Under the pieces are notes generated by a model. That model was not told the origin of the DNA and did no database searches. It saw only the letters and a list, made by a program, of their open reading frames with translations. This document shows, piece after piece, positions 1,317-59,596 of a stretch of 64,000 nt of DNA (positions are counted from its first letter, which is position 1; each line of letters begins with the position of its first letter). This DNA is from Opitutales bacterium (lineage in GTDB: Bacteria > Verrucomicrobiota > Verrucomicrobiia > Opitutales > JABSRG01): assembly GCA_028280845.1 (NCBI GenBank), contig JANQKZ010000045.1:62001-126000 (forward strand). Reading direction: 5' to 3'. The translations under genes and the position numbers were made by a program.

Positions 1317-3245
1317 ATGAATACTATCTCCTTTATGTCTGCTAATTTTGTTGCACGCCAGATCGACTATCATATGTCGGACGGCTGGATGCAGGGAGAC
1401 GATGCCACCAACACATGGTTCGCTCCGTTAGCCACCTTTGAGGAGCGTTTGGATGAGATGTTGGGGGAAGTCGCTGACTTGGGCTTTAGGGCAATCGATA
1501 TCTGGTCCGCTCACCTGAATTATCAATGGGCGACCCCCGCTCATATCGCGATCGCAAAAAAGCTATTGGAGACGCATGAGCTCCTGCCGGTTAGCTACGC
1601 TGGTGGCTTTGGGGAAACACCAGCTGAGTTGGAGGCTGCATGCAGGTTGTGCCGTGAGCTGGAAATACCCGTCTTGGGAGGAAGTATGCCCTTGCTCCAG
1701 AGCGACCGTGAGACCGCAGTCTCCATTTTACGCAAGCATGGGCTACAGTATGGATTTGAGAATCACCCGGAGGCTACCCCGGAGGAAGTATTGGCCAAAC
1801 TGGGAGAAGGCGATGAAGACGTCATCGGAGTTGCCCTGGATACGGGCTGGTTTGCTACCCAGGGCTTTGATGCCCTTGAGGCCTTGAAACAATTGGCGCC
1901 CCGCTTGAAACACTTTCATCTCAAAGACATTAAAGCCCCCCGCGAAGAGAAAACGGGGTATATGTTTATCGACATGGGTCATGAAACCTGTGCCCTTGGG
2001 GATGGGATCACCCCGGTTGAAGCCTGTGCAAAAATCCTTCCCGAGTTAGGTTACCGTGGAGCCATCGCCATCGAACATGAACCTGAGGAATATGATCCAC
2101 GTGAAGACTGCAAGCTCTCCCTGGAGCGTTTGAAGGTGTGGCTGAAAGACGGGGTGGACGCTCTGATCCCTGAAAACCCACTTGGCGTAGTCATCGTCGG
2201 CTGCGGCAATATCTCTGCCGCTTACGCCCGCGAGATCTTAACCTATCCTCATATCAAGTTCCTCGGAGCCCAGGATCTCGATCTGTCGCGATCCGAAGCG
2301 CTCGTCAAGGAATACGGGGGTAAGGTCTACCCGACCCTGGAAGACGTGCTTGCTGATCAGCAGGTTGAAGTCGTGGTGAACCTTACCATTCACCATGCTC
2401 ATGTGGAAGTGATTACCAAATGTCTCGAAGCCGGTAAGCATGTTCACTCAGAGAAACCTCTGGCCAACAGCTATGAAGACGCCAAAGGCTTGGTGGACTT
2501 GGCTAAGGAAAAAGGGTTACGCCTGAGTTGTGCTCCTACCACTTGGTTGGGAGAAGCCCAACTCACCGCCTGGAAGATGGTGCGTGAAGGCAAGATTGGC
2601 ACCCCTCGCGTTGCTTATGCTGAGGTGAACTGGGGTCGGATTGAATCCTGGCACCCGAATCCAGGCCCATTCTACGCCGTCGGTCCGGTCTTTGACGTAG
2701 CCGTTTATCCGCTGACCTTACTGTCGACATGGTTTGGCCCTGCCAAGCGGGTAGTCGCGGGGGGCGGAGTGGTCCATCCCAATCGTCAGACCTCTGATGG
2801 AACTCCTTTTACGATTGAACAACCGGAGTGGTCCACGGCCATTGTTGAATTTGAGGACGGAGTCCAGGCGCGAATTACCTCGAGCTTTTACACGGGGTGG
2901 AACACTAGACAGCACGGCCTCGAGCTCCACGGAGATGAGGCCATGATCGCCCTCGATCGTTGGGATGTATTTGATACGGGAGTCTACTACGCTCCCATTC
3001 ACCAAAGGGGATTCCACGAGAAGGTACCTTTGCTCCGACCCGCCTTTCACGGTATTGAATTTGCCCGAGGCCTGAGTGATCTCGCTATTGCGCTTCGCGA
3101 AGACCGCCCTCACCGGACCACGGGTGATCAAGCAGCTCACGTAGTCGAAATCATGCAGGCCGTTCATAAAAGTCTGGCTTCCGGAACAAGCGTCAACCTC
3201 ATATCGACCTTCAATCGTCCCACACCGCTCCCCTGGGCGGAGTGA
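1317..3245 (+). CDS. Bifunctional sugar isomerase/epimerase - Gfo/Idh/MocA oxidoreductase fusion
   Basis: Two normally separate catabolic enzymes in one 642-residue chain. Residues about 1-280 form a xylose-isomerase-like TIM barrel (AP_endonuc_2 superfamily). The usual metal-site acids and histidines are visible in FENHPEA, ALDTGW, HFHLKDI and AIEHEPEE. Residues about 285-640 are a Gfo/Idh/MocA dehydrogenase with a Rossmann segment VVIVGCGNISAAYA and the family EKP motif in HSEKPLANSYEDA near residue 380. There is no signal peptide, so the protein should be cytoplasmic. Fusion means consecutive oxidation and isomerisation (or C-C/C-O cleavage) of one sugar intermediate is likely. The exact substrate cannot be read from sequence. 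ATG 1317 is the first start and gives a clean TIM-barrel beginning. Confidence 0.88.
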   Translation: MNTISFMSANFVARQIDYHMSDGWMQGDDATNTWFAPLATFEERLDEMLGEVADLGFRAIDIWSAHLNYQWATPAHIAIAKKLLETHELLPVSYAGGFGETPAELEAACRLCRELEIPVLGGSMPLLQSDRETAVSILRKHGLQYGFENHPEATPEEVLAKLGEGDEDVIGVALDTGWFATQGFDALEALKQLAPRLKHFHLKDIKAPREEKTGYMFIDMGHETCALGDGITPVEACAKILPELGYRGAIAIEHEPEEYDPREDCKLSLERLKVWLKDGVDALIPENPLGVVIVGCGNISAAYAREILTYPHIKFLGAQDLDLSRSEALVKEYGGKVYPTLEDVLADQQVEVVVNLTIHHAHVEVITKCLEAGKHVHSEKPLANSYEDAKGLVDLAKEKGLRLSCAPTTWLGEAQLTAWKMVREGKIGTPRVAYAEVNWGRIESWHPNPGPFYAVGPVFDVAVYPLTLLSTWFGPAKRVVAGGGVVHPNRQTSDGTPFTIEQPEWSTAIVEFEDGVQARITSSFYTGWNTRQHGLELHGDEAMIALDRWDVFDTGVYYAPIHQRGFHEKVPLLRPAFHGIEFARGLSDLAIALREDRPHRTTGDQAAHVVEIMQAVHKSLASGTSVNLISTFNRPTPLPWAE

Positions 3246-10958: not shown

Positions 10959-11978
10959 CTAGAAGCAACTGTAATCCGATCGCCGATCGGTGGAACCGCA
11001 GATCACCAGGTTGTTCGTACCGGCATCACGCCGATCGGTAAAAGCACGAACCTTTATGGAGGCCCTCGAAATCTCCCCATTTAGAGTCATACCCTTATCC
11101 CATAAACTCACCAGAACCGCATTGGGGTTTTCTATATCGCAGCCATCAATAAAGATATTGGAAGTATACCGCCCCTGCCGGCCGGATATGATCGCATTGT
11201 CCGAGTTGGGTCGCCCCCCATCCCCAAGAATGGTGAGATTCTCAAAACGGGTGGTCGCGACCGAGTCCTTGTCGCCCCACCCCAACTGAATCGGCACAGA
11301 ATTCCGGATCATCTTAATGGTGCAGTTCTTCACCGTATAATCGAAGTAGGCTTTGAACACATCGTCCCCGCACTCAAAATAACAGTCTTCCACCGTAGAG
11401 CCATCGCCTCCGACAAATCCATCGCTGTGGTTCTGGGCCCCGCCACGGTCATCAATCAGGTCACACCCCTTCATATGGATGACCGTCCCATACCCGCGCA
11501 CAAAGTAGGAAAAGGGGTTCAGCAGGGTCAGATTCCCGAGATGCATCACCCCTCCTAGATTCTCAATCTGGCTGTAATACCATTCGCGCAAGGGAAGGCC
11601 GCCCGGGTTGACGTCGGCCCAACGCTGCAGGGGGGTCCCATAGATGACTGACGTGTTTCGGTCTTCGCCTTCAATCCGAATATCCGCCTGTGCATGAAAG
11701 GCCCCTGTCACCTGGACCCCTTCACCAATGAACACCCGCTTTACCTCTTTCGGGATCAACCAATAGTGCTGCTTCTGGTTCTGTTCAAGGTTCGTCCCGT
11801 CTCCCACTTTCTCGGGAAAGGAAATCGTCCCGCTGCTCACAAATGTCACCACCCCCTCGGTGGCATCCCAGGCCAGACGCCCATCATAACACGCCTGCAA
11901 CCGCGAAACCGATTGCCCATGCAGGGAACCGCCGATGAGAGCGACCCCGAACCACACCCCGGCCAACGCCCGCCACAT
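10959..11978 (-). CDS. Secreted right-handed beta-helix protein (polysaccharide-active, GH28/GH49-like)
   Basis: About 339 residues with a Sec signal (MWRALAGVWFGVALIGGSLHGQS). The mature sequence has the short repeated strands of a parallel beta-helix. Segments such as IRIEGEDRNTSVIYGTP, HSDGFVGGDGSTVEDCYF and ECGDDVFKAYFDYTVKNCTI resemble the DG/DD-containing active-site rungs of GH28 and GH49 enzymes. The acidic pair in CGDD is a candidate catalytic site. The gene is the last of a five-gene minus-strand operon. Its ATG overlaps the stop of the preceding cytochrome-like gene (TGATG), implying translational coupling. An in-frame TTG three bases upstream is less likely. Substrate and exact family are uncertain. 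Confidence 0.75.
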   Translation of the reverse strand: MWRALAGVWFGVALIGGSLHGQSVSRLQACYDGRLAWDATEGVVTFVSSGTISFPEKVGDGTNLEQNQKQHYWLIPKEVKRVFIGEGVQVTGAFHAQADIRIEGEDRNTSVIYGTPLQRWADVNPGGLPLREWYYSQIENLGGVMHLGNLTLLNPFSYFVRGYGTVIHMKGCDLIDDRGGAQNHSDGFVGGDGSTVEDCYFECGDDVFKAYFDYTVKNCTIKMIRNSVPIQLGWGDKDSVATTRFENLTILGDGGRPNSDNAIISGRQGRYTSNIFIDGCDIENPNAVLVSLWDKGMTLNGEISRASIKVRAFTDRRDAGTNNLVICGSTDRRSDYSCF

Positions 11979-12451
11979 CAATGATCCTCCGGGGGGCGAA
12001 ACTCCCCATGGCTCATTTTGCGATGTTCGTCCAGCTGCGCGATCAAGGCATTGGCCTTCGCATTGTCGTCCGCCTTAAAGGCGGCGTGCAACTCTTTGAG
12101 CGAAGCCATAAAGACCCCCATCTCCCGGAGGTAGGCTTCGACAAACGCGTCGCGATCCGCTTCCAGCACATCCTCCGTCATCATGGGGACATACTCCATG
12201 GATTTTTCCACGTGGACCAGGATGGTCTCTACAATTTTGGCAGTATCGGCATTATTTTCCGGCTTGCGTGCCCCGCGTTTTACTTGGCGCCATGCTTTTC
12301 CGATGGCGCTCATTTCGTCCTCCAGGGGGGTGTGCTCGTGCCCTTCCCCAACTACGCCTTCGTTATCATGATTATCGGCGGAATACCCGGTGCCGAGGGA
12401 TAGCAAGAAAATGAAAATACAAGTGAGGGATGGTGGCAGAACTTTATTCAT
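11978..12451 (-). CDS. Cytochrome b562-like four-helix protein
   Basis: 157-residue exported protein with a signal peptide at residues 1-24 (MNKVLPPSLTCIFIFLLSLG). The mature part is a predicted four-helix bundle. It begins TPLEDEMSAIGKAWRQV and ends ALIAQLDEHRKMSHGEF. These match the two haem-ligand segments of cytochrome b562, Met in the first helix (residue 47) and His near the C-terminus (residue 148). If haem is bound, this is a soluble periplasmic electron carrier. A leading His/Glu-rich stretch (residues 26-40) is unusual. The gene lies within an operon of ThuA, Gfo/Idh/MocA and HEAT genes. ATG 12451 starts the signal peptide; upstream codons add a non-signal leader. Confidence 0.75.
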   Translation of the reverse strand: MNKVLPPSLTCIFIFLLSLGTGYSADNHDNEGVVGEGHEHTPLEDEMSAIGKAWRQVKRGARKPENNADTAKIVETILVHVEKSMEYVPMMTEDVLEADRDAFVEAYLREMGVFMASLKELHAAFKADDNAKANALIAQLDEHRKMSHGEFRPPEDH

Positions 12452-12517
12452 AACTGGCGTTTGCATAAGCTGGGAAGGAAGTCCCGGCAAGCTCCTTCCT
12501 CTACCAATTGACTGGGA

Positions 12518-13756
12518 TCAGGAATCTGCAGTCGGCGTCCCGCCCTCGACTACCCTTGCCATGAGGCCATTCAGCCGCCCACGGCTCTCTTCCGATCCCG
12601 CTGCCATCCGATGGGATTCCAGAATTTCAAGGGCCGGCCCGGGATCGGCCTGGCGCAAGATGATTCGATAAGCTGTCCGCTGCCAGTCACTCGCATCAGA
12701 AGAGTCCTCCGTGGATAGCCAATGCTCCACAACCTGACCCAATTCCGTCAGCGGGGCCACATAGCCCAGGGCGCGGCGAGCTTCCCTTCCGATGATTCCA
12801 GATTCGCGGCCCAGAGCCAACAAGGGCTCAACCGCTGCCGGGTCGGCCCTCCCCCCCAAGGCACGGATGACTTCCGCCTGCACGACCTGCCCAGCGACGG
12901 GTTCTGCCAGCCGGTTTCTCAAAAATGCATCCACCGCTGGATTATTCATCCGGACTAAGGCTGCCCGCGCCGCCTTCTGCCGGGAAGATTCGTCCGAGGT
13001 CGCCAGGACCAGTAAAGGATCTACATGCTCCACCTCACCAAACTCACCCGCAGCCCAGATGGCCACATCGGTGAGCACCGATGGTTCCGCTCCGAGGATT
13101 TGGGATAGGACTGGCAGTATGGAAGGATCCCGCTTATAGGCCGCGATGGTCAGGACTTGAATCTGCTCCCGGTCGGTCAACGTAGACTGCTGGAGAAGCT
13201 GGGCTCCCAATCCCAGGCCAGTATCCACCTGCGCGCTCAACTGTATCACCATCTGCCTGGTATCGCCCTTCGATTCCCTGACCTCCTCCAGAATCCAACT
13301 CATCGGGTGAGCGACCAACTGCACTTTGAGCAACAGGGCTCCCTTCTGAACAGGTGCATGCGTGATGGGCGACTCGAGCAGCCAATCCACCAGAGGCGTG
13401 GCTTCTGCCAGGTGTCCCGATCGAATCAATAATTGGGCGGCCCGCAGCATCGCATGATCCCGCGGCGTGGGATAACGAAAATCTGGTTGCTCCGTCCGCC
13501 TCAGGATTTCCTCAGCTGCAGCTGGGGTTCCGATTTCCCCCAGGGCATGCAAGGCGGCCAGCGCATAATCATGAACAGGATCATCCAGCAACGGTATGAG
13601 CAGGGAAACGACCTCCGCGTTACCGGGTTGCCCCTGGCTTTGGATAAAGGCCAGCTTCTGGGCATAAGGGGCATCGGGCAGGGCTCGTGAAGACTCACCG
13701 CGCAGAGTCGCCCAGCACAACAGCAGGCACAGGGGGATAAGCCATCGATAGATCAT
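12518..13756 (-). CDS. Secreted HEAT-repeat protein
   Basis: About 412 residues with a signal peptide (MIYRWLIPLCLLLCWATLRG) and then paired helices of HEAT/PBS-lyase type, e.g. LLIPLLDDPVHDYALAALHA, DVAIWAAGEFGEVEHVDPLL and EVIRALGGRADPAAVEPLLA. Such solenoids bind partner proteins and in Verrucomicrobiota/Planctomycetota are often joined to sugar-dehydrogenase/cytochrome modules. This one sits between a Tat oxidoreductase and a cytochrome b562-like gene. The start ATG overlaps the stop of the upstream oxidoreductase (ATGA, 4 bases), a sign of coupled translation. No catalytic motif is seen; a docking or assembly role is inferred from context only. Confidence 0.8.
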   Translation of the reverse strand: MIYRWLIPLCLLLCWATLRGESSRALPDAPYAQKLAFIQSQGQPGNAEVVSLLIPLLDDPVHDYALAALHALGEIGTPAAAEEILRRTEQPDFRYPTPRDHAMLRAAQLLIRSGHLAEATPLVDWLLESPITHAPVQKGALLLKVQLVAHPMSWILEEVRESKGDTRQMVIQLSAQVDTGLGLGAQLLQQSTLTDREQIQVLTIAAYKRDPSILPVLSQILGAEPSVLTDVAIWAAGEFGEVEHVDPLLVLATSDESSRQKAARAALVRMNNPAVDAFLRNRLAEPVAGQVVQAEVIRALGGRADPAAVEPLLALGRESGIIGREARRALGYVAPLTELGQVVEHWLSTEDSSDASDWQRTAYRIILRQADPGPALEILESHRMAAGSEESRGRLNGLMARVVEGGTPTADS

Positions 13757-15069
13757 AGCGTCCACGGGCTCCGCATAGGGCGACTCAACAGGGCGTTCGC
13801 TTCCGCATCATTAATAAAGGCCTCCTGGTCATTATCCCAATACAGTCTACGCCCTAACTGGCAGGCAATTTCGGCTTGCTGGCAAACGAGCTCAGACTTT
13901 ACCCCGGGACCTACCGGACAGATCGTAGGAGTGCCGTTTCGAACCGCATCCAAAAAGTTTCTCCAGTGATTGGGGCTCACCGGCAGACGAATATCGGATG
14001 GCAGTATCGGGGTCCGGATGAGCGACTTGGGCTCAGAGTCGATGTAGCCTCGAGCCACATAGACCCAGCCTTCAGACCCCTCGAAGAGCACGCCCATGGA
14101 ATTCGGGGCATTAAGCTGGGGCACCTTCTCACGCCCTTTGATGTGATCGACGTGGAGCACAGTTAAGCCATTAGGGTACGTGTGCTCCACCTCGAAGTAC
14201 TGAAAGGTGTCGTACAGGCCTTCGGCTGGTCTTTGACCCCAACCTTCTACCGCTACGGGTCCGGCATCATCCGCATCCATGGCCCATTGGGCGATATCTA
14301 CATGGTGGATCCCCCAGGCTCCGCTTAAGCATCCCAGGGAATAATCACGGATCAGCGTCCAATTTCGTGTGCACCGCAGGGTGGTATAGGGGGCAATAGG
14401 CGAAGGTCCCAGCCAGAGATCATAATCCAGCTCCTCCGGAACGGGCTCAACCGGCTGCGGGCCTACCTCCACGTAACTGGCGGATCCGATAACGATGCGC
14501 TTGGGTTCACCCAGGTAATGGTTCCTGAACAATTCCACCACATAGCGAAACCGTGCATCCGACCGTTGCTGGGTCCCGAACTGGAACGTCACACCATAGC
14601 GGTTGATACAATCGCGCATCGCCTTCGCCTCCTCCGCCGTCAGGCTCATTGGTTTCTCATAGTACATGGCCTTCCCCTGCCGGGCGGCTTCCATGCCCAT
14701 GAGCACATGCCAATAGTCGGGAGTCGAGATGCAAACAGCATCAATATCGGGGCGGGCAAGCAATACCCGGAAATCATTATAGGTCGCGCAGCTGTCATCC
14801 CCGTATTGCGCATCGACTCGGGCTTTTGCCGCCTGCCGCTTAGATTCGAAGACATCGCATACCGCGACCACTCGCACATCATCCAGGGCCACACAACGCT
14901 TCAGGTGGTTCGTTCCCATCCCCCCCACACCAATAAATCCCATATTGATTTTGCTATTGTGAAAGGTAGACCCGGCCTGCCCCCACACTTTGGATGGGAT
15001 AATAGTAGGGGCAAGGGCCGCCCCGCCGACTCCGGCCGCACTAGTTTTGAGAAAATTTCGGCGCTTCAT
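13753..15069 (-). CDS. Tat-exported Gfo/Idh/MocA oxidoreductase
   Basis: About 438 residues with a strong twin-arginine signal (MKRRNFLKTSAAGVGGAALA). The Rossmann motif is MGFIGVGGMGTNHLKR, and the catalytic-lysine motif is YYEKPMSLTAEEA near residue 145. The C-terminal domain carries GCLSGAWGIHHVDIAQW, typical of the exported subgroup. The NAD(P)-bound enzyme probably oxidises a sugar or glycoside hydroxyl in the periplasm; how the cofactor is reoxidised there is the open question. The gene is second in the operon. Its start overlaps the upstream ThuA-isomerase gene by 29 bases and its stop overlaps the HEAT gene by 4. ATG 15069 begins the Tat motif and is preferred over an upstream TTG. 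Confidence 0.9.
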   Translation of the reverse strand: MKRRNFLKTSAAGVGGAALAPTIIPSKVWGQAGSTFHNSKINMGFIGVGGMGTNHLKRCVALDDVRVVAVCDVFESKRQAAKARVDAQYGDDSCATYNDFRVLLARPDIDAVCISTPDYWHVLMGMEAARQGKAMYYEKPMSLTAEEAKAMRDCINRYGVTFQFGTQQRSDARFRYVVELFRNHYLGEPKRIVIGSASYVEVGPQPVEPVPEELDYDLWLGPSPIAPYTTLRCTRNWTLIRDYSLGCLSGAWGIHHVDIAQWAMDADDAGPVAVEGWGQRPAEGLYDTFQYFEVEHTYPNGLTVLHVDHIKGREKVPQLNAPNSMGVLFEGSEGWVYVARGYIDSEPKSLIRTPILPSDIRLPVSPNHWRNFLDAVRNGTPTICPVGPGVKSELVCQQAEIACQLGRRLYWDNDQEAFINDAEANALLSRPMRSPWTL

Positions 15070-16813
15070 TGGCGGCAATTATCAGGCTTTGCTGGTTGAA
15101 ATAGGAAATGGACTGGCGAATGGCCGGCATCGACTTATCCCATTCGTAGGAATATTCCAGGCCGAACATCACCGGTTCGATCCCTCGCTTCGTCATATAA
15201 GCCAGGATACCATCCAGGTTCACCACTCCAGTTCCCCAGGGCACATCATGTCCCTCTGCCGTCAATGCACTTTGATCGTGCATTTGAACGGTGATGACCC
15301 GGTCGCCCAGGGTCTTGATGGCTTCATAGGGATCGATCCCCTCCTTCGCCCAATGCCCGAAATCACAGGCAGCCCCAATCAAGGGACTTCGGCCTTCACA
15401 GAGCTCAACTATTCTTTCCGGATACATGTAGACCGGCGACAGACGCTCACCATGGTTATGGATGGCCACCTTGATATTATACTCCACGCAGAGTCGCTCG
15501 ATTAAATCCAGGTCCTCCACCTTGGGTTCCGAGATAAAAGTCTCGATGCCCATCTCTTTTCCGAATTCAAAAATTTTGCGGCACTCCGCCTCATCTCCCG
15601 GGAGATCGAATACGAAATAGGTCAACAGGCTCATCCCTTCATCCGCCAGTTTTTCCCGGATGGCTCGGCGCTCTTCCGATGTAAGCTTATAATCAAAAGG
15701 TTTATCGATTTCCTTACTGACAGGCTGCACGTTCAAGCCACCGACATAGGCCAAGCCAAGTGCACTGGTTTTCTCAACAACATCAAAGAATGTGTCGTTC
15801 TTAAAGGTGTAAGCCTCGATGCCAAACCGCCACCCCAGGTTTTCCTGGGCTTCGACCGCAGGCGTTACCTTGCTGCTCGGAATGGTCGGTCCATCCAAAT
15901 CTCCCATCGCAAATTGGAGCCCATCCAGCATGTGGCGAATCAGAGGCGGATTCCAAAAAATATGCTCATTATGCCCAAGGGACGTATAAAATACCCGACC
16001 GCGGCCATACCGTTTCACCCAGCTCATGGCGAAATCCTGGTCTGCCATCCGCTCTGGCAGCATGCGCCGCTCCGGATTCATATCCGTCAATCGGGGGTCG
16101 ATGCTCAACACGACCCGGTTCCGGTCTCTCGAATACGGATCAGTGAACTGAAACACTTCATCACTCACATCGATATGGGCCCTGCCAAACACTCTGGAGA
16201 TCGGGTGCTCCGGCTCGTCCACTTTCAGGGTGATCCAGTCATAGGCCTTCCACGGGTGTCCCCCGCTTTCAAATCCGCCTAACATGACACCGAATTGAGG
16301 AAAAAAATCGTAGCGCGGCCATTGGCAGAAGGTGGCCCCAGCCGCATGAATCCCGACGAATCCTCCACCCTGGGTCACATAATCCAGCAAGTCGTTGCGA
16401 AGCTGCTCATCCTCCGTCAATACACCAGCGGTATTATTAAAGACCACCGCATCAAATTGATCCAAGTAATCCTTCTTAAAGACCGCGGGATCCCTGCTGA
16501 AGAACACCTCGTAAGCCCCCGACTTCTCCCCCATGACCTGAAACATGTAGTTTCCGTAGGGAATAGAAGGGTGGCCCGGGCGGACCTCTTTGCCCGTTAA
16601 ATGCAAATTAAAGATCAGGACCTTGCGGGGAGCTTGTGGCCTGGCCGATAAAGTGTCAGGAGTAGCTCGCTCGATCCGCTCGCGATCCACAGCCGGGATC
16701 GAAACAAAAGAATCGTCGGGTAAAATTGGCCCTTGTTTTTGGCCAAAGGTCACGGCGGCGGACACCAGAGAAAAACAGGTGGCCCAGGTGAATAATGGAA
16801 TAAAGTGCTTCAT
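15041..16813 (-). CDS. Secreted ThuA - sugar isomerase/epimerase fusion
   Basis: About 590 residues with a Sec signal (MKHFIPLFTWATCFSLVSAA). Residues about 45-265 are a ThuA/trehalose-utilisation domain, a class-I glutamine-amidotransferase-like fold, with NLHLTGKEVRPGHPS, LDYVTQGGGFVGIHAAGATF and RVFYTSLGHNEHIFW. Residues about 305-575 are a xylose-isomerase-like TIM barrel with IEAYTFKNDTFFDVV, KVAIHNHGER, GAACDFGHW and VITVQMHDQS containing the metal-ligand acids and histidines. ThuA-type proteins are linked to 3-keto-sugar metabolism, so the fusion plausibly processes the product of the co-operonic oxidoreductase. This is the promoter-proximal gene. ATG 16834 would add seven residues ahead of the signal peptide and is a possible alternative. 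Confidence 0.85.
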   Translation of the reverse strand: MKHFIPLFTWATCFSLVSAAVTFGQKQGPILPDDSFVSIPAVDRERIERATPDTLSARPQAPRKVLIFNLHLTGKEVRPGHPSIPYGNYMFQVMGEKSGAYEVFFSRDPAVFKKDYLDQFDAVVFNNTAGVLTEDEQLRNDLLDYVTQGGGFVGIHAAGATFCQWPRYDFFPQFGVMLGGFESGGHPWKAYDWITLKVDEPEHPISRVFGRAHIDVSDEVFQFTDPYSRDRNRVVLSIDPRLTDMNPERRMLPERMADQDFAMSWVKRYGRGRVFYTSLGHNEHIFWNPPLIRHMLDGLQFAMGDLDGPTIPSSKVTPAVEAQENLGWRFGIEAYTFKNDTFFDVVEKTSALGLAYVGGLNVQPVSKEIDKPFDYKLTSEERRAIREKLADEGMSLLTYFVFDLPGDEAECRKIFEFGKEMGIETFISEPKVEDLDLIERLCVEYNIKVAIHNHGERLSPVYMYPERIVELCEGRSPLIGAACDFGHWAKEGIDPYEAIKTLGDRVITVQMHDQSALTAEGHDVPWGTGVVNLDGILAYMTKRGIEPVMFGLEYSYEWDKSMPAIRQSISYFNQQSLIIAANEAPKFSQN

Positions 16814-53832: not shown

Positions 53833-56800
53833 CTAAGACTGTTTAAACCAGGAACGAATCCGCTTCCGCTCGCGATACACGCAGCCAAGCAGAAGCAGAG
53901 CCCCTCCGATATAAGTCGATGGTTCTGGAACAGGCACAATTTCGTTGCCTCGCCACTGGGCCGCAAAGTCGCCGGTTTGCCCGGCTGGGTTCCGAAATAT
54001 GATTTGCCCCAATTGGGTTTCACTGAGCCCTGCGTCAGCAAATAGAATCTGGTCCAGGCCACCTCCTTCAAAGTCACCATTCCAGTTTTCAATGATCAAC
54101 TGGCTACTCCCATCCCAGGCGATCCCTTCACTATCTGAGAATTGAAGGATACTGCCATCTCCAGCTGCCGATCCCATGTCGATGGTGGAGTCGGCTGAGA
54201 GGGTCAGGGTGTCCACAATCTCATTAAAATCATTCAGATTGAGGGTGCCCCCGCTCAGTTCCAGGTCGGTGGAGTTTCCGATCTGGTCGTCCGCGCTGAG
54301 GAATAGGGTCCCACCCTGGACATCCAGGAGCGACCCTTCAATGTTGTTGAGGTTGGAATCCAGCGTCAAATCCCCATCTCCCGCTTTGGTGATTGTACCC
54401 AGATTAATGATACCGGTTCCTGGCACCGAAGAGGTGATCTCGTTCGAGTTCCCATTCCCCACATTCATTGTGATATTGGGCCGGTTCGACACCGCAGGAT
54501 TAGTCACACTGAGGTCACCATCCGTTATCTGAAGCGTCCCGGCCGTCAATTCGGACCCGCCATCCAGGATTGTCGTGGAAGCCAGGGAGGTGACTCCACC
54601 GGAGACCGCTAAAGTTCCGTTGTTGGTCAAGTTGATCTGCCCCACTAGAGAAACCGCCGTGTCGGTTGCCCCACTGATGTTTACCGTGGAGAATGCCCCA
54701 TCCACAGTGAAGGTGTCATTGCTACTGAGCCCAAAACTGTTGGCAACTCCCTCGGATAAGTCGACATTGAGTGTCCCTCCATTGGTTACGCTGTATGTGG
54801 AACCCGTCGTCCCCGTATCAGGCGAGCTGAAGTCTCCGCCTCCGGTTAAGTTGATGGTGCCTCCGGAAACCGTGAGAGAGGATCCACTTTCGACCGTGAT
54901 ATTGTCGCCCACGGTAATGCTAGTGGTCCCCCCGGTGTTGACCAGATTGCCCCCATTGGAAGTATCCCCGAGAAGAAAATCCGCCGCCCCATTGGTGTTG
55001 GAGAGGGTGACGGTGCCGCTGTTATTGGTCAGGGTCACACCCCCGCTCAACTCAATGGTGTTCGCCCCACTCATTGTCGCGGTCAAAGTCGAGCCGGAGT
55101 TTACTGTGATATTACCGGTTCCCAGGTAGTTGTTTCCCCCGGAATCTTCACCCAGAATGAGTGAATCGTTTTGGCTCACCAGGACGTTGCCACTCTCGAC
55201 GATGAGACCCCCGCTAAAATCCGTGTCGTTACTCGCGATGCTCAACGTGCCTCCACCATCAACCGTCAACCCACCGGTCCCGGAAAAGTCTTTCCCGGTA
55301 TCCAGGGCCAAGGTCGTATCACTAGCGATATTGATCGTCGTGTTGACTTGGCCTAAGTCGACGGTCTCCGTTCCTGAGAAAGTCAGAGTGTTGCCGCCGG
55401 TAACGCTAAAGTCTGCGTTAATGTTCAGGCCGTTGGCAATAGTCTGGCTTGCATTGTCAGCATTTAAAGTTCCTCCGTTAATAGTAAGATCGCCGGTCCC
55501 CAAAGCAGCGTTATTGCGAATTCGGAGAGTTCCCTCATTCAGGGTAACCCCACCCGTGAACGTGTTGGCATCGTCCAACCGTAGGATGCCATCGCCATTT
55601 TTCACGATTGCGCCCCCGCCAGAGATCAAAGACCGGATCTGTGTCTGACTCGAACCACTCACGGTGATGTTGTTTCCGTTAGTCGCCAAGGTAGAACTAG
55701 TTCCCCCCAGAATTAAGCCGGTCGTGGCAGAGGAATTATTGATGATTTGCAAATTATCATTCAGCGAAAAATTGATATTCCGATTATTGTTTCCCACCCG
55801 GTTTTGCGCATTGCCGGAAACAATGATGAAAGCATCCGCATCTCCTGTTTGGTCGAATACAAAGGTCCTCGAGACAGAATTCGAACTGGACCGAATCACG
55901 TAATTGTTCCCCGTGGTCTGATTAAAGGTGAGGTTCCCTAAAGTACGGGTGCCTCCATTGTCCCCATTGACATTTACGCTTCCAGCATTGGCATCCAAAT
56001 TGCCAAAGATCACTTTATCCCCGACATTCAAACCCGGCATAGACCCGGCATTCGGATCCCAGTTTGTAAGTTGCGAAGCGGAATCGCCCCAGGCAGAGTT
56101 AGAATCTGCATCCCACTCCGAAAAGTCGGCCAGGGTGGGTACAAGCTCATAGCGACCATCTCCGGTCAGGCGCCATTCTACATCTCCCCACCCGGTAAAA
56201 GTGGTGTTATCTCTGATCGTGTCGCGTACGCCCTGGGTCACGCTGTCATCCACAAAGAAACCCGTCGTCGTGGACGCGGTCGTAATGGTGGCATCGGGAG
56301 TGCCCACCCAATCGTCGATGGTCAAGCTCCCTGCAGTGAGATCGATATCACTGAAGGTAAGCAGCCCTCCCGTTGTGGAATTAAAATCGATCACCCCCGA
56401 GCCGGTGTTGTTGATATCCAGGCTGCCTATGGTATCGCCAAAACCATTGGTGGACAGCGTCCCGTCTCCCAGAGTGATGGACATATTGTCACTGAAGGTA
56501 TTATCCGCTCCAATCGCCACCTCCCCCGCGTTGATGTTCATTACCCCTTCAAAGGTGTTGGCTCCGGAAAAGGTCATCGTGCCTGTCCCATTTTTATTAA
56601 AGATGTCTCCACTGTCCCCGTTCATAGTTCCACTGAAGACCGTGTTGGTATTATCAGAGCCCACCGACAACGTGACATTGGTATTCCCGGCGTTCTCCAT
56701 GGTCAGATTCCCCCCACCTGCCAGCGAAGTAAAGGTGTCACTCCGAATGTTCATATCCAGAGTGGCCCCACTATTGATGATGACCGCGGACTGGTCATTT

Positions 56801-59190
56801 AACCGATTATTTCCCCCCGCGTAACGCAAGGTTCCGGATTCCACGATGGTATCCCCCGTGTAAGCCATCGGATCCTGCCACTCGACAATACCATCTCCCG
56901 TAATGGTGACATTGCCCGTCCCCGTGATTGCTCCATCGATGGAGAGCACGGCTCCGGAGGCAGCTCCGAAAGAGGCTCCGCTGGCTCCCACATCGGCCCC
57001 GGCATCAATTTCATTGGTTCCCGAAGCGGACCATACCGCCGCCTTCCCGGCCACCCCCGAACCGGATACGGTAAAGGCCTCGTCGTCCCCCGTGTTGATA
57101 CCGCCGGAAAGTTCAATCGTGGCTCCGGATTCGACGACCGTCCCGCCAGTGGTATTTCCAAGGGCACCCGCGTTGCTGATACTCAGCGTTCCCTCGGATA
57201 CGGTGGTCACTCCGGAATAGGTGTTATTATTGGACAGGGTCGCCGTGCCTGCACCAGTCTTCGTGACACTGAGTGAGTTGCTGATGACGGAATCGATGTC
57301 CAGATTGGCTCCGGATTGGGAATCCAAAGCCAGGTTGAAACCGCCGCCATTGATACCGCCTGTATCGACGGTCAACCGATCGGCCTGCGAACTGATGGTG
57401 GCATCGCCTGTCAACGTTACCCCGGACTGCCAGGTATTGTCGCCCGAGGTATTGGACAGCGCGCCGACTCCATCCTGACCAGCCCCGGCAATCGTCAGGG
57501 TTTCCCCCGTCCCCACCGTGATCCCATTCGCCAGGGCAAGCGTGCCGCCATCCTGCACCGTCGTACCACCAGCAGTCGTCCCTAGACCTTGGGCATCTTC
57601 AATCTGCAAAATGCCCCCTTCAATGTCGACGGCTCCCGTAAACGTATTTGCCCGGGTAAACCGAGTCGTTCCTATTTCGGTTTTGGAGAGGCTTCCGGAT
57701 CCCGAAATGATTCCACTGACTACGGTCGTTCCCGTATTGCGGAATTCAATATTCTCCGCGTTGCCGATAATATCCCCCCCGATGGTCAGGGTCTGGTCGA
57801 CTAGATTTTGAATCACGGCCTGATCCTTCACATCGATATCCACGTTGATCGTGTGATCGGCATTCCCTGCCGGATTGTTCAATACGCTGATGTAGGCCTT
57901 ATCATTATCGCTCGTGTCCGCATCAAACTGCAGGTTGATTTTCCGGGTCCCCGTATCCCCATTCAGGGTATAGCTGGTCGGCCCGGAAAAGATGAGCGCG
58001 TTATGCGTCTTGTCCGAGCCATCTACCGAAATGGTCTGGGCGGTTTGGGTATTTGTATAATTGTTGGTAAACAACACCGAATCATAATCATCCGGGATCG
58101 CGTCTCCGTCCCAATTGGTCGCCGTGGTCCAACGATTGTCCAGGGAATCATTGTCCCAGAACACAGCGGAATCCCCCGCCGTCGCCGAAACGGATAAGTT
58201 CCGGATTTCATGCACATTAATCGATCCACCCGTGGCAGCTCCAAACCCGATCCGTAACTGGTCCGGCCGGGTGAATCCGGTCGCCGATAGATCCACATCA
58301 AACAGAAAATCTTCGCTCGTCCCAAACCCGTCCGTTAAGTAAACCGAAAGCTGGTTATTGACGTCCAAGAGGATCCTCACGTTCCGATAGTCACCGGCAT
58401 CCTGGTCGGGTCGGGTCGACGTATCGAATGACAAACTGGGAGCCAGATCCGGTATCACGAGCTCGTCAGTGTCCGTATAATCCCGGTCACCGGTTGCCCC
58501 CAAAAGAAGATAAGCGTCCTCTCCCGCTGTTCCCGTCCACCCGTCGATGGCGGCGGGCCCACGCACCACCACCTGGTTTTTGTTCAAGCCGTTAGATATA
58601 TCCACGCTACTGCCAGTCGGATTATTAAGATCATAGGCTCCACTTCGACCTTCGGCGTCGTTAATGAAATTTCCGTATACATCGAGCCCGACACCAAGAT
58701 AGGCCCCGGCCAAACCCGGGTTACTCAATAGCTGGGCATAGCCCAGGGACCCCCCAAATGCTCCTACGTCAAATTCTACTCCAGCATCCCACAGGAATAG
58801 AGTAATTCCGTCGGCAGGATCGCTTCCCCCACCCCACATCGTAAAGTCTACCGAAATTTCGATCTGGTTAGCTGAGGAGGGTATCGGGGTATCCAGGGCC
58901 ACCGCATTGGCCTGGAATCCCGTGGTGGTGGCCAGACGCAACCACCCATCTCCCACTGCATCGATGGTCGACCCGGTTTCCGGATCGGTGGCCTCCGGCG
59001 CCCTTCCCGCCGTCAGGCGTGGCCCTGGGGCGGTTCCATTGACGTCAGAGGTGAACTCCCACCCTGGTGCGCTCGTCCCCGTAAAACTCTCCTCAAACAA
59101 AAACTGCCCGAATATTGGGCAAGGCAAAGCCACCCAGGTTATCACCAGAGCAAATGAAACAACCCTCAGGCAGATAGATTGGCGCCGCAT
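53833..59190 (-). CDS. PEP-CTERM beta-strand-repeat surface protein with lectin-like N-terminus
   Basis: About 1785 residues. The signal peptide (LRVVSFALVITWVALPCPIF) is followed by a concanavalin-like lectin domain at about 30-330: DGITLFLWDAGVEFDVGAFG, NVRILLDVNNQLSVYLTDGF. Then come many autotransporter-associated beta-strand repeats of about 30-60 residues (SGSGSLSKTEIGTTRFTRAN, LSVTKTGAGTATLSNNNTYS, GAIVKNGDGILRLDDANTF), forming a predicted long beta-solenoid. No outer-membrane translocator barrel is present. The protein ends in a PEP-CTERM sorting signal: VPEPSTYIGGALLLLGCV then RERKRIRSW. Export with exosortase-type processing is therefore expected, although no exosortase gene is seen here. 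ATG 59190 begins the signal peptide. Confidence 0.9.
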   Translation of the reverse strand: MRRQSICLRVVSFALVITWVALPCPIFGQFLFEESFTGTSAPGWEFTSDVNGTAPGPRLTAGRAPEATDPETGSTIDAVGDGWLRLATTTGFQANAVALDTPIPSSANQIEISVDFTMWGGGSDPADGITLFLWDAGVEFDVGAFGGSLGYAQLLSNPGLAGAYLGVGLDVYGNFINDAEGRSGAYDLNNPTGSSVDISNGLNKNQVVVRGPAAIDGWTGTAGEDAYLLLGATGDRDYTDTDELVIPDLAPSLSFDTSTRPDQDAGDYRNVRILLDVNNQLSVYLTDGFGTSEDFLFDVDLSATGFTRPDQLRIGFGAATGGSINVHEIRNLSVSATAGDSAVFWDNDSLDNRWTTATNWDGDAIPDDYDSVLFTNNYTNTQTAQTISVDGSDKTHNALIFSGPTSYTLNGDTGTRKINLQFDADTSDNDKAYISVLNNPAGNADHTINVDIDVKDQAVIQNLVDQTLTIGGDIIGNAENIEFRNTGTTVVSGIISGSGSLSKTEIGTTRFTRANTFTGAVDIEGGILQIEDAQGLGTTAGGTTVQDGGTLALANGITVGTGETLTIAGAGQDGVGALSNTSGDNTWQSGVTLTGDATISSQADRLTVDTGGINGGGFNLALDSQSGANLDIDSVISNSLSVTKTGAGTATLSNNNTYSGVTTVSEGTLSISNAGALGNTTGGTVVESGATIELSGGINTGDDEAFTVSGSGVAGKAAVWSASGTNEIDAGADVGASGASFGAASGAVLSIDGAITGTGNVTITGDGIVEWQDPMAYTGDTIVESGTLRYAGGNNRLNDQSAVIINSGATLDMNIRSDTFTSLAGGGNLTMENAGNTNVTLSVGSDNTNTVFSGTMNGDSGDIFNKNGTGTMTFSGANTFEGVMNINAGEVAIGADNTFSDNMSITLGDGTLSTNGFGDTIGSLDINNTGSGVIDFNSTTGGLLTFSDIDLTAGSLTIDDWVGTPDATITTASTTTGFFVDDSVTQGVRDTIRDNTTFTGWGDVEWRLTGDGRYELVPTLADFSEWDADSNSAWGDSASQLTNWDPNAGSMPGLNVGDKVIFGNLDANAGSVNVNGDNGGTRTLGNLTFNQTTGNNYVIRSSSNSVSRTFVFDQTGDADAFIIVSGNAQNRVGNNNRNINFSLNDNLQIINNSSATTGLILGGTSSTLATNGNNITVSGSSQTQIRSLISGGGAIVKNGDGILRLDDANTFTGGVTLNEGTLRIRNNAALGTGDLTINGGTLNADNASQTIANGLNINADFSVTGGNTLTFSGTETVDLGQVNTTINIASDTTLALDTGKDFSGTGGLTVDGGGTLSIASNDTDFSGGLIVESGNVLVSQNDSLILGEDSGGNNYLGTGNITVNSGSTLTATMSGANTIELSGGVTLTNNSGTVTLSNTNGAADFLLGDTSNGGNLVNTGGTTSITVGDNITVESGSSLTVSGGTINLTGGGDFSSPDTGTTGSTYSVTNGGTLNVDLSEGVANSFGLSSNDTFTVDGAFSTVNISGATDTAVSLVGQINLTNNGTLAVSGGVTSLASTTILDGGSELTAGTLQITDGDLSVTNPAVSNRPNITMNVGNGNSNEITSSVPGTGIINLGTITKAGDGDLTLDSNLNNIEGSLLDVQGGTLFLSADDQIGNSTDLELSGGTLNLNDFNEIVDTLTLSADSTIDMGSAAGDGSILQFSDSEGIAWDGSSQLIIENWNGDFEGGGLDQILFADAGLSETQLGQIIFRNPAGQTGDFAAQWRGNEIVPVPEPSTYIGGALLLLGCVYRERKRIRSWFKQS

Positions 59191-59596
59191 AGCGAGTAAT
59201 GGCTCTATTGCCCGAAAATGAGATTTAGCAGACAATGCGGCTTGAATCGGCGTACCTCATAAAAAACTTAGTCATTTGTAGTTTTTTAATGCATTTTTAA
59301 CTTATTTCACATGAGCAGCTTACGGTTCTAAATAAGGAATATACCCTAGAAAATAAAATAAGGTATTCTCCTTATCTCTTTCGTGAAATAATATCAAGCC
59401 ATGAAGGTCTCCCTTTGAGACCGGCATGACCAACCTGAATCTCCCCTGAAAAATATCCTAAGTCTTTATATTATAAAAACTTATATTATATTCTTGCTCG
59501 AATTTCAGGTTCGGCAAACAGGAACTGACCCACCCTGAAGTCACAGCGATTCCCATGAAATAAGAAAATCGTAGCGACCAACGAAGGCCAAATCAC
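59191..59596. other. AT-rich leader region of the PEP-CTERM gene
   Basis: 406 bases between the isocitrate dehydrogenase stop and the PEP-CTERM gene start, both on the minus strand. No gene is seen. The segment is clearly AT-rich. It contains an imperfect inverted repeat (59334-59345 with 59362-59373, 10 of 12 matching) and a direct repeat of TTATATTATA near 59465-59495. Promoter function is likely. Confidence 0.5.

Follow-up and report, generated by a model that had tools for sequence, protein, structure and literature searches.

The stretch analysed here (the window) comprises 64,000 nucleotides from an Opitutales bacterium, positions 62001-126000 of contig 13 in an assembly of 4.8 Mb and 62 contigs, and on its minus strand, from 16813 to 10959, lies a run of five open reading frames (ORFs). 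Taken from their ATG starts, they encode an exported fusion of ThuA with a xylose-isomerase-like TIM barrel (gene 1, 15041-16813, 590 amino acids (aa) from the ATG at 16813), a Gfo/Idh/MocA oxidoreductase exported by the twin-arginine (Tat) route (gene 2, 13753-15069, 438 aa), an exported HEAT-repeat protein (gene 3, 12518-13756, 412 aa), an exported protein of the cytochrome b562 family with Met 47 and His 148 as predicted axial ligands (gene 4, 11978-12451, 157 aa), and an exported right-handed beta-helix protein putatively of the dextranase/isopullulanase type, glycoside hydrolase family 49 (GH49) (gene 5, 10959-11978, 339 aa). In gene order, the junctions are an overlap of 29 bases, an overlap of four (ATGA), a gap of 66 and an overlap of one, exactly the arrangement given in an earlier, sequence-only reading of this DNA, all of whose coordinates were reproduced. 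The export signals it had assigned to all five proteins were also borne out, by a hydrophobic core at every N-terminus (Kyte-Doolittle 15-residue maximum 1.45 to 2.07) and, for gene 2, by a score of 24.1 bits against a cut-off of 22.7 for the TAT_signal family (PF10518). Overlaps of this kind are commonly seen in co-transcribed genes, and the 66-base spacer between the HEAT and b562 genes (12452-12517, minus strand) is the single weak joint of the run, coinciding with the point at which synteny with relatives ends. No special or terminator-like RNA structure was found in this spacer, nor did promoter or terminator signals rise above chance in the region, and the b562 gene is probably co-transcribed with the genes before it in the source genome.

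The first three genes recur together elsewhere. A search for the fusion over 372 genomes found it in four besides the source genome (G029, G098, G276 and G313). At the G029 locus (L040) the fusion, Gfo/Idh and HEAT genes lie head to tail, the fusion being 60% and the Gfo/Idh protein 60-61% identical to those of the window; at the G098 locus (L041) the TIM half, Gfo/Idh and HEAT genes do the same, with 77% identity over the visible TIM part and 64% for Gfo/Idh. The syntenic HEAT genes of both loci are 23-28% identical to gene 3, and their position indicates that the HEAT protein goes together with the enzymes. In neither of these two genomes, members of the same order, does the unit extend past the HEAT gene, beyond which stands a CobW-like gene (L040) or a converging helicase gene (L041), names assigned by eye, and neither a b562 nor a GH49-like gene lies beside the cassette. 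Because the order is kept in both genomes and stops at the HEAT gene, genes 1 to 3 are best regarded, on gene order, as a conserved unit whose end is marked by the 66-base spacer. The sequence-only reading had taken all five genes as one system; only the first three were kept, in these two other genomes, where relatives carry fusion, Gfo/Idh and HEAT without an adjoining carrier. The fusions of G276 and G313 (43-45%) were considered as further cassettes and rejected, since no such Gfo/Idh or HEAT gene directly adjoins them; these two genomes have no b562.

The identity of the three proteins is clear at family level. Gene 1 matches ThuA (PF06283, 124 bits) and the AP_endonuc_2 TIM barrel (PF01261, 53 bits) in Pfam. 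The nearest PDB structures to its TIM half are 3p6l and 4kw2, both sugar isomerase-like proteins, with no 3-keto-C-glycoside lyase among the matches listed, and the candidate metal or active-site residues E436, H459, H461, D491, H519 and E560 do not vary among four fusions (numbering begins at the ORF start, 16834). Gene 2 has a Rossmann domain, a C-terminal domain and an EKP motif, as in the Gfo/Idh/MocA proteins: PF01408, PF19051 (GFO_IDH_MocA_C2) and PF10518 all score above cut-off, and both the motif (E141, K142, P143) and the two arginines of its twin-arginine signal (MKRRNFLK) are invariant in ten homologues. Its top NCBIfam model is the glycoside 3-dehydrogenase family BT_2158_fam (NF058561), but its score of 127 bits falls far below the curated threshold of 750, which makes gene 2 a relative rather than a member of that family; its top PDB matches, 8tdf and 8tdh, are dehydrogenases, and glucose-fructose oxidoreductase (GFOR; 1ofg) was matched at E 4.3e-7. 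Gene 3 matches HEAT_2 (PF13646, 57 bits). In the source genome the Gfo/Idh C2 domain (PF19051) was matched 29 times (some genes counted twice; some two dozen genes) and the 3-keto-disaccharide hydrolase domain 25 times, in places in tandem within one frame, but b562 only once.

The partners of the Gfo/Idh protein are found with such enzymes in other arrangements too. When contigs were scanned with the alignment of the ThuA-TIM fusion, the patterns fell in the ThuA half only, and the scan gave ThuA genes and no close fusions; at eight of the 80 ThuA loci so obtained, from several phyla, ThuA lies directly upstream of a Gfo/Idh gene on the same strand, at 27-105 bases, and none of these eight has a b562 gene. 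Because this pairing recurs across phyla, a functional link between ThuA and Gfo/Idh is suggested. Elsewhere in the window (1317-3245, plus strand) a 642-aa protein carries an N-terminal xylose-isomerase-like TIM barrel and a C-terminal Gfo/Idh part, with no obvious export signal, and since the two are fused in one protein a functional link between TIM barrel and Gfo/Idh is suggested as well. Judged by the related loci of the ThuA scan, the nearest neighbours of the source genome in sequence are Verrucomicrobiota-type bacteria. The source genome (G000) has a second ThuA-type match, on contig 6 (182506-183357; L038, L042), which contains an in-frame TAA within the matched stretch and adjoins a further ThuA-like match.

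The proposal of a b562-like carrier with Met and His ligands stands up well. Gene 4, the sole b562 copy of its genome, matches Cytochrom_B562 (PF07361) at 42.3 bits, against a curated Pfam cut-off of 30. Its AlphaFold model is a four-helix bundle in which the predicted local distance difference test score (pLDDT) mostly exceeds 90, and for which Foldseek lists mainly b562 chains and b562 fusions. VIA-align places residues 41-152 of the model on 1-106 of E. coli b562 (256b), with a root mean square deviation of 2.4 over 106 residues and a Z of 13.5, which is close to the level that unrelated helical bundles can reach; the register runs end to end, pairing Met 47 with Met 7 and His 148 with His 102 (residues counted from the ATG at 12451), as the sequence alignment also does. 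A search of PDB sequences with gene 4 alone gave no match; the Pfam profile and the fold comparison did. Conservation of the two ligands in orthologues, on which the sequence-only reading had staked haem binding, was confirmed: the Met is present in 34 of 34 aligned rows and the His in all 33 complete ones, one row being cut short. On profile and model, gene 4 is thus assigned to the true b562 family, with both predicted haem ligands conserved. It shares fold, length and both axial ligands with E. coli cytochrome b562 (CybC), from which it differs in sequence (about 15% identity) and in a His-rich stretch before the bundle that CybC lacks. Such a stretch (GEGHEHT and similar), between signal peptide and bundle, is also seen in many b562 relatives, among them those of L163, L018, L020, L025 and L028, and possibly binds metal.

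Away from the window, b562 genes keep other company. A single-sequence search matched 16 of 132 genomes of the order, a lower bound, as the b562 of G163 was missed at E 1e-8 and recovered by the Pfam profile. Around 31 further b562 loci, usually taken with 8 kb on each side and in several cases ending at contig ends, tblastn at E 1e-5 found no ThuA, TIM, HEAT or such Gfo/Idh neighbour, with one exception, L174, where a distant Gfo/Idh gene lies about 6.6 kb from b562. In the seven genomes with the next-nearest Gfo/Idh proteins (46-48%), the curated Pfam profile detects no b562. In family f7, b562 occurs with P-II, ammonium transporter and NIPSNAP genes (the first two named by eye); L018, L020, L021, L023, L024 and L029, all of one family, have b562 with NIPSNAP, and P-II or the ammonium transporter in most. 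In G029 and G251 its neighbours are paired PSCyt1-DUF1592 and DUF1552 genes, whereas a PSCyt1-DUF2231 gene adjoins it in G002; the PSCyt1-DUF1592/DUF1552 neighbours may point to a redox partner of b562. At L163 (8044-12662) and L019 (7957-12463), b562 genes of two genera stand beside PSCyt1-DUF1592 and DUF1552 genes in differing orientations.

Gene 5 has no Pfam match, and no curated family model matched it. A profile of it with two relatives found in the PDB the dextranase 6nzs (E 4.5e-10) and isopullulanase 1wmr (E 3e-4), the best Foldseek matches are isopullulanase and Dex49A, and D187, D206 and D207, which align with Asp residues of 6nzs, are invariant in three relatives. This likeness in profile and fold to the GH49 dextranases and isopullulanases is tempered by length, about 550-590 aa in those enzymes against 339 aa here, and by an identity of about 15%. 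In G061, GH49-like relatives belong to clusters for glycan degradation with sulfatases, one of them following a Sde182-like gene. For that reason gene 5 is best taken for a hydrolase, as its profile and fold also make probable; the label of a non-hydrolytic system, attached to the run by the sequence-only reading, is weakened by the resemblance to GH49. G061 has no b562 by the Pfam profile. The surroundings of the locus also contain genes of the GH95, gluconolactonase-like and Sde182-like kinds. Further along the window (53833-59235, minus strand) is a gene for a protein of 1800 aa that has passenger-associated transport repeats and, by eye, a PEP-CTERM-like C-terminus.

Several known systems resemble parts of this locus. 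The BT2156-BT2160 cluster of Bacteroides thetaiotaomicron includes BT2158, an exported Gfo/Idh oxidoreductase like gene 2, and a 3-keto-O-glycoside lyase of that species is part of the known pathway (PMC13273386). In the window, by comparison, ThuA is fused to the TIM barrel and a HEAT gene follows; outside the run, at a distance of 26 kb, is the 3-keto-disaccharide hydrolase domain (PF06439). The ThuA-ThuB pair of trehalose and disaccharide utilisation likewise sets a ThuA domain next to Gfo/Idh, a widespread pairing, but in gene 1 the ThuA domain belongs to an exported fusion with a TIM barrel, and a HEAT partner accompanies it. Zymomonas GFOR, a Tat-exported, NADP-carrying Gfo/Idh enzyme distant in sequence from gene 2, is not known to act with ThuA, TIM or HEAT partners. 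LacABC, the lactose 3-dehydrogenase of Caulobacter, combines a flavin enzyme of the GMC type and a c-type cytochrome, whereas none of the five proteins has a CxxCH motif or a GMC domain. Its likeness to the reading proposed here lies in periplasmic sugar 3-oxidation (PMC9007349).

With moderate confidence, we interpret the locus as a conserved, exported three-gene sugar cassette that is followed by b562 and GH49-like genes in the source genome only. The Gfo/Idh protein would most likely leave the cytoplasm folded, with NAD(P) bound, through the Tat system, and oxidise a hydroxyl of a sugar or glycoside, probably at C3 by analogy with BT2158, after which the putatively metal-dependent TIM half of the fusion may act on the keto sugar by isomerisation or beta-elimination. 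The ThuA half would assist in some step, and the HEAT protein would serve to keep the components together. The bound cofactor would most simply be recycled by reducing the product or a second sugar, making an outside carrier unneeded; the b562 and GH49-like genes would then be a lineage-specific addition, in which b562 need not serve the Gfo/Idh protein and the GH49-like protein would, as a probable hydrolase, supply oligosaccharide.

The sequence-only reading had proposed instead that b562 takes electrons from the reduced nicotinamide of the exported Gfo/Idh protein, in an electron-linked cleavage of glycans. A nicotinamide donates a hydride, that is two electrons, and b562 accepts single electrons; Pfam and NCBIfam scans found no flavin protein among the five that could bridge the two. 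The underlying premise, that an NAD(P) enzyme outside the cytoplasm has no obvious route to cofactor reoxidation, does not hold in general: NADP-containing GFOR leaves with its cofactor by the Tat route, according to the title of Halbig (1999; cited in PMC6708511), GH109 enzymes of the Gfo/Idh fold regain their NAD through successive oxidation, elimination, hydration and reduction (PMC10755693), and in BT2158 a glycoside 3-dehydrogenase works in the periplasm (PMC11300592). Because of these precedents, and of the mismatch between hydride and one-electron transfer where a flavin bridge is lacking, a closed redox cycle would be the simpler reading by analogy. Such exported or redox-neutral Gfo/Idh enzymes function without a carrier of this kind. 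The comparison likewise gave the proposed coupling no support, as b562 adjoins neither of the two other cassettes, the 31 other b562 loci all lack these enzymes as neighbours, and the seven genomes described above have Gfo/Idh relatives without any b562.

Several observations nevertheless weigh against the cassette interpretation, most of them by favouring a tie between b562 and the enzymes. Only two other cassettes were found, and the ThuA half of the G098 fusion lies past a contig end. In the source genome b562 lies 66 bases downstream of the cassette on the same strand, in one likely operon, so that co-expression is likely, and its predicted haem ligands are invariant. Both other cassette genomes also own a b562 somewhere, an agreement expected by chance with a probability of about 0.012, and the source copy groups weakly with that of G029 (86/80). 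This co-occurrence was set aside as support for coupling, given where the genes lie: both are on other contigs than their cassettes, that of G029 beside PSCyt1, DUF1592 and DUF1552 genes as in G251, and that of G098 at the f7 site shared with family members that lack the cassette, a common site which explains its presence without the cassette. On balance we consider transfer of electrons from the Gfo/Idh enzyme to b562 very improbable, and equally so a lineage-specific recruitment of b562 as direct or mediated acceptor of a Tat-exported Gfo/Idh sugar dehydrogenase. A haem protein that generally carries electrons in the periplasm, b562 might instead serve other redox partners there, for instance c-type cytochrome proteins of the PSCyt1/DUF1592 kind or a membrane cytochrome, and owe its place here to chance or shared regulation. 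The PSCyt1 neighbours in G029, G251 and G002 fit such a role, but at most of the 31 other loci b562 lacks a neighbouring c-type cytochrome gene and no single general partner emerges, leaving this explanation possible though rather unlikely. It is also conceivable, if doubtful, that the five genes form one lineage pathway for alpha-glucan, in which the GH49-like protein would break down the polymer into oligosaccharides for oxidation and cleavage by the cassette, with b562 somehow included. The one-base overlap of genes 4 and 5, the GH95, gluconolactonase-like and Sde182-like genes around the run and the glycan clusters of G061 agree with this; the presence of GH49-like relatives in a genome without b562 does not.

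A link to b562, if true, would explain how an exported nicotinamide enzyme feeds the respiratory chain, against which the comparison argues, and a recruited b562 would be the first case of extracytoplasmic nicotinamide sugar oxidation linked to a haem b carrier. The cassette itself joins three poorly understood and very common exported families, the ThuA-TIM fusion, Gfo/Idh and HEAT proteins, in one conserved unit, and offers a clear test case for the roles of the ThuA and HEAT partners.

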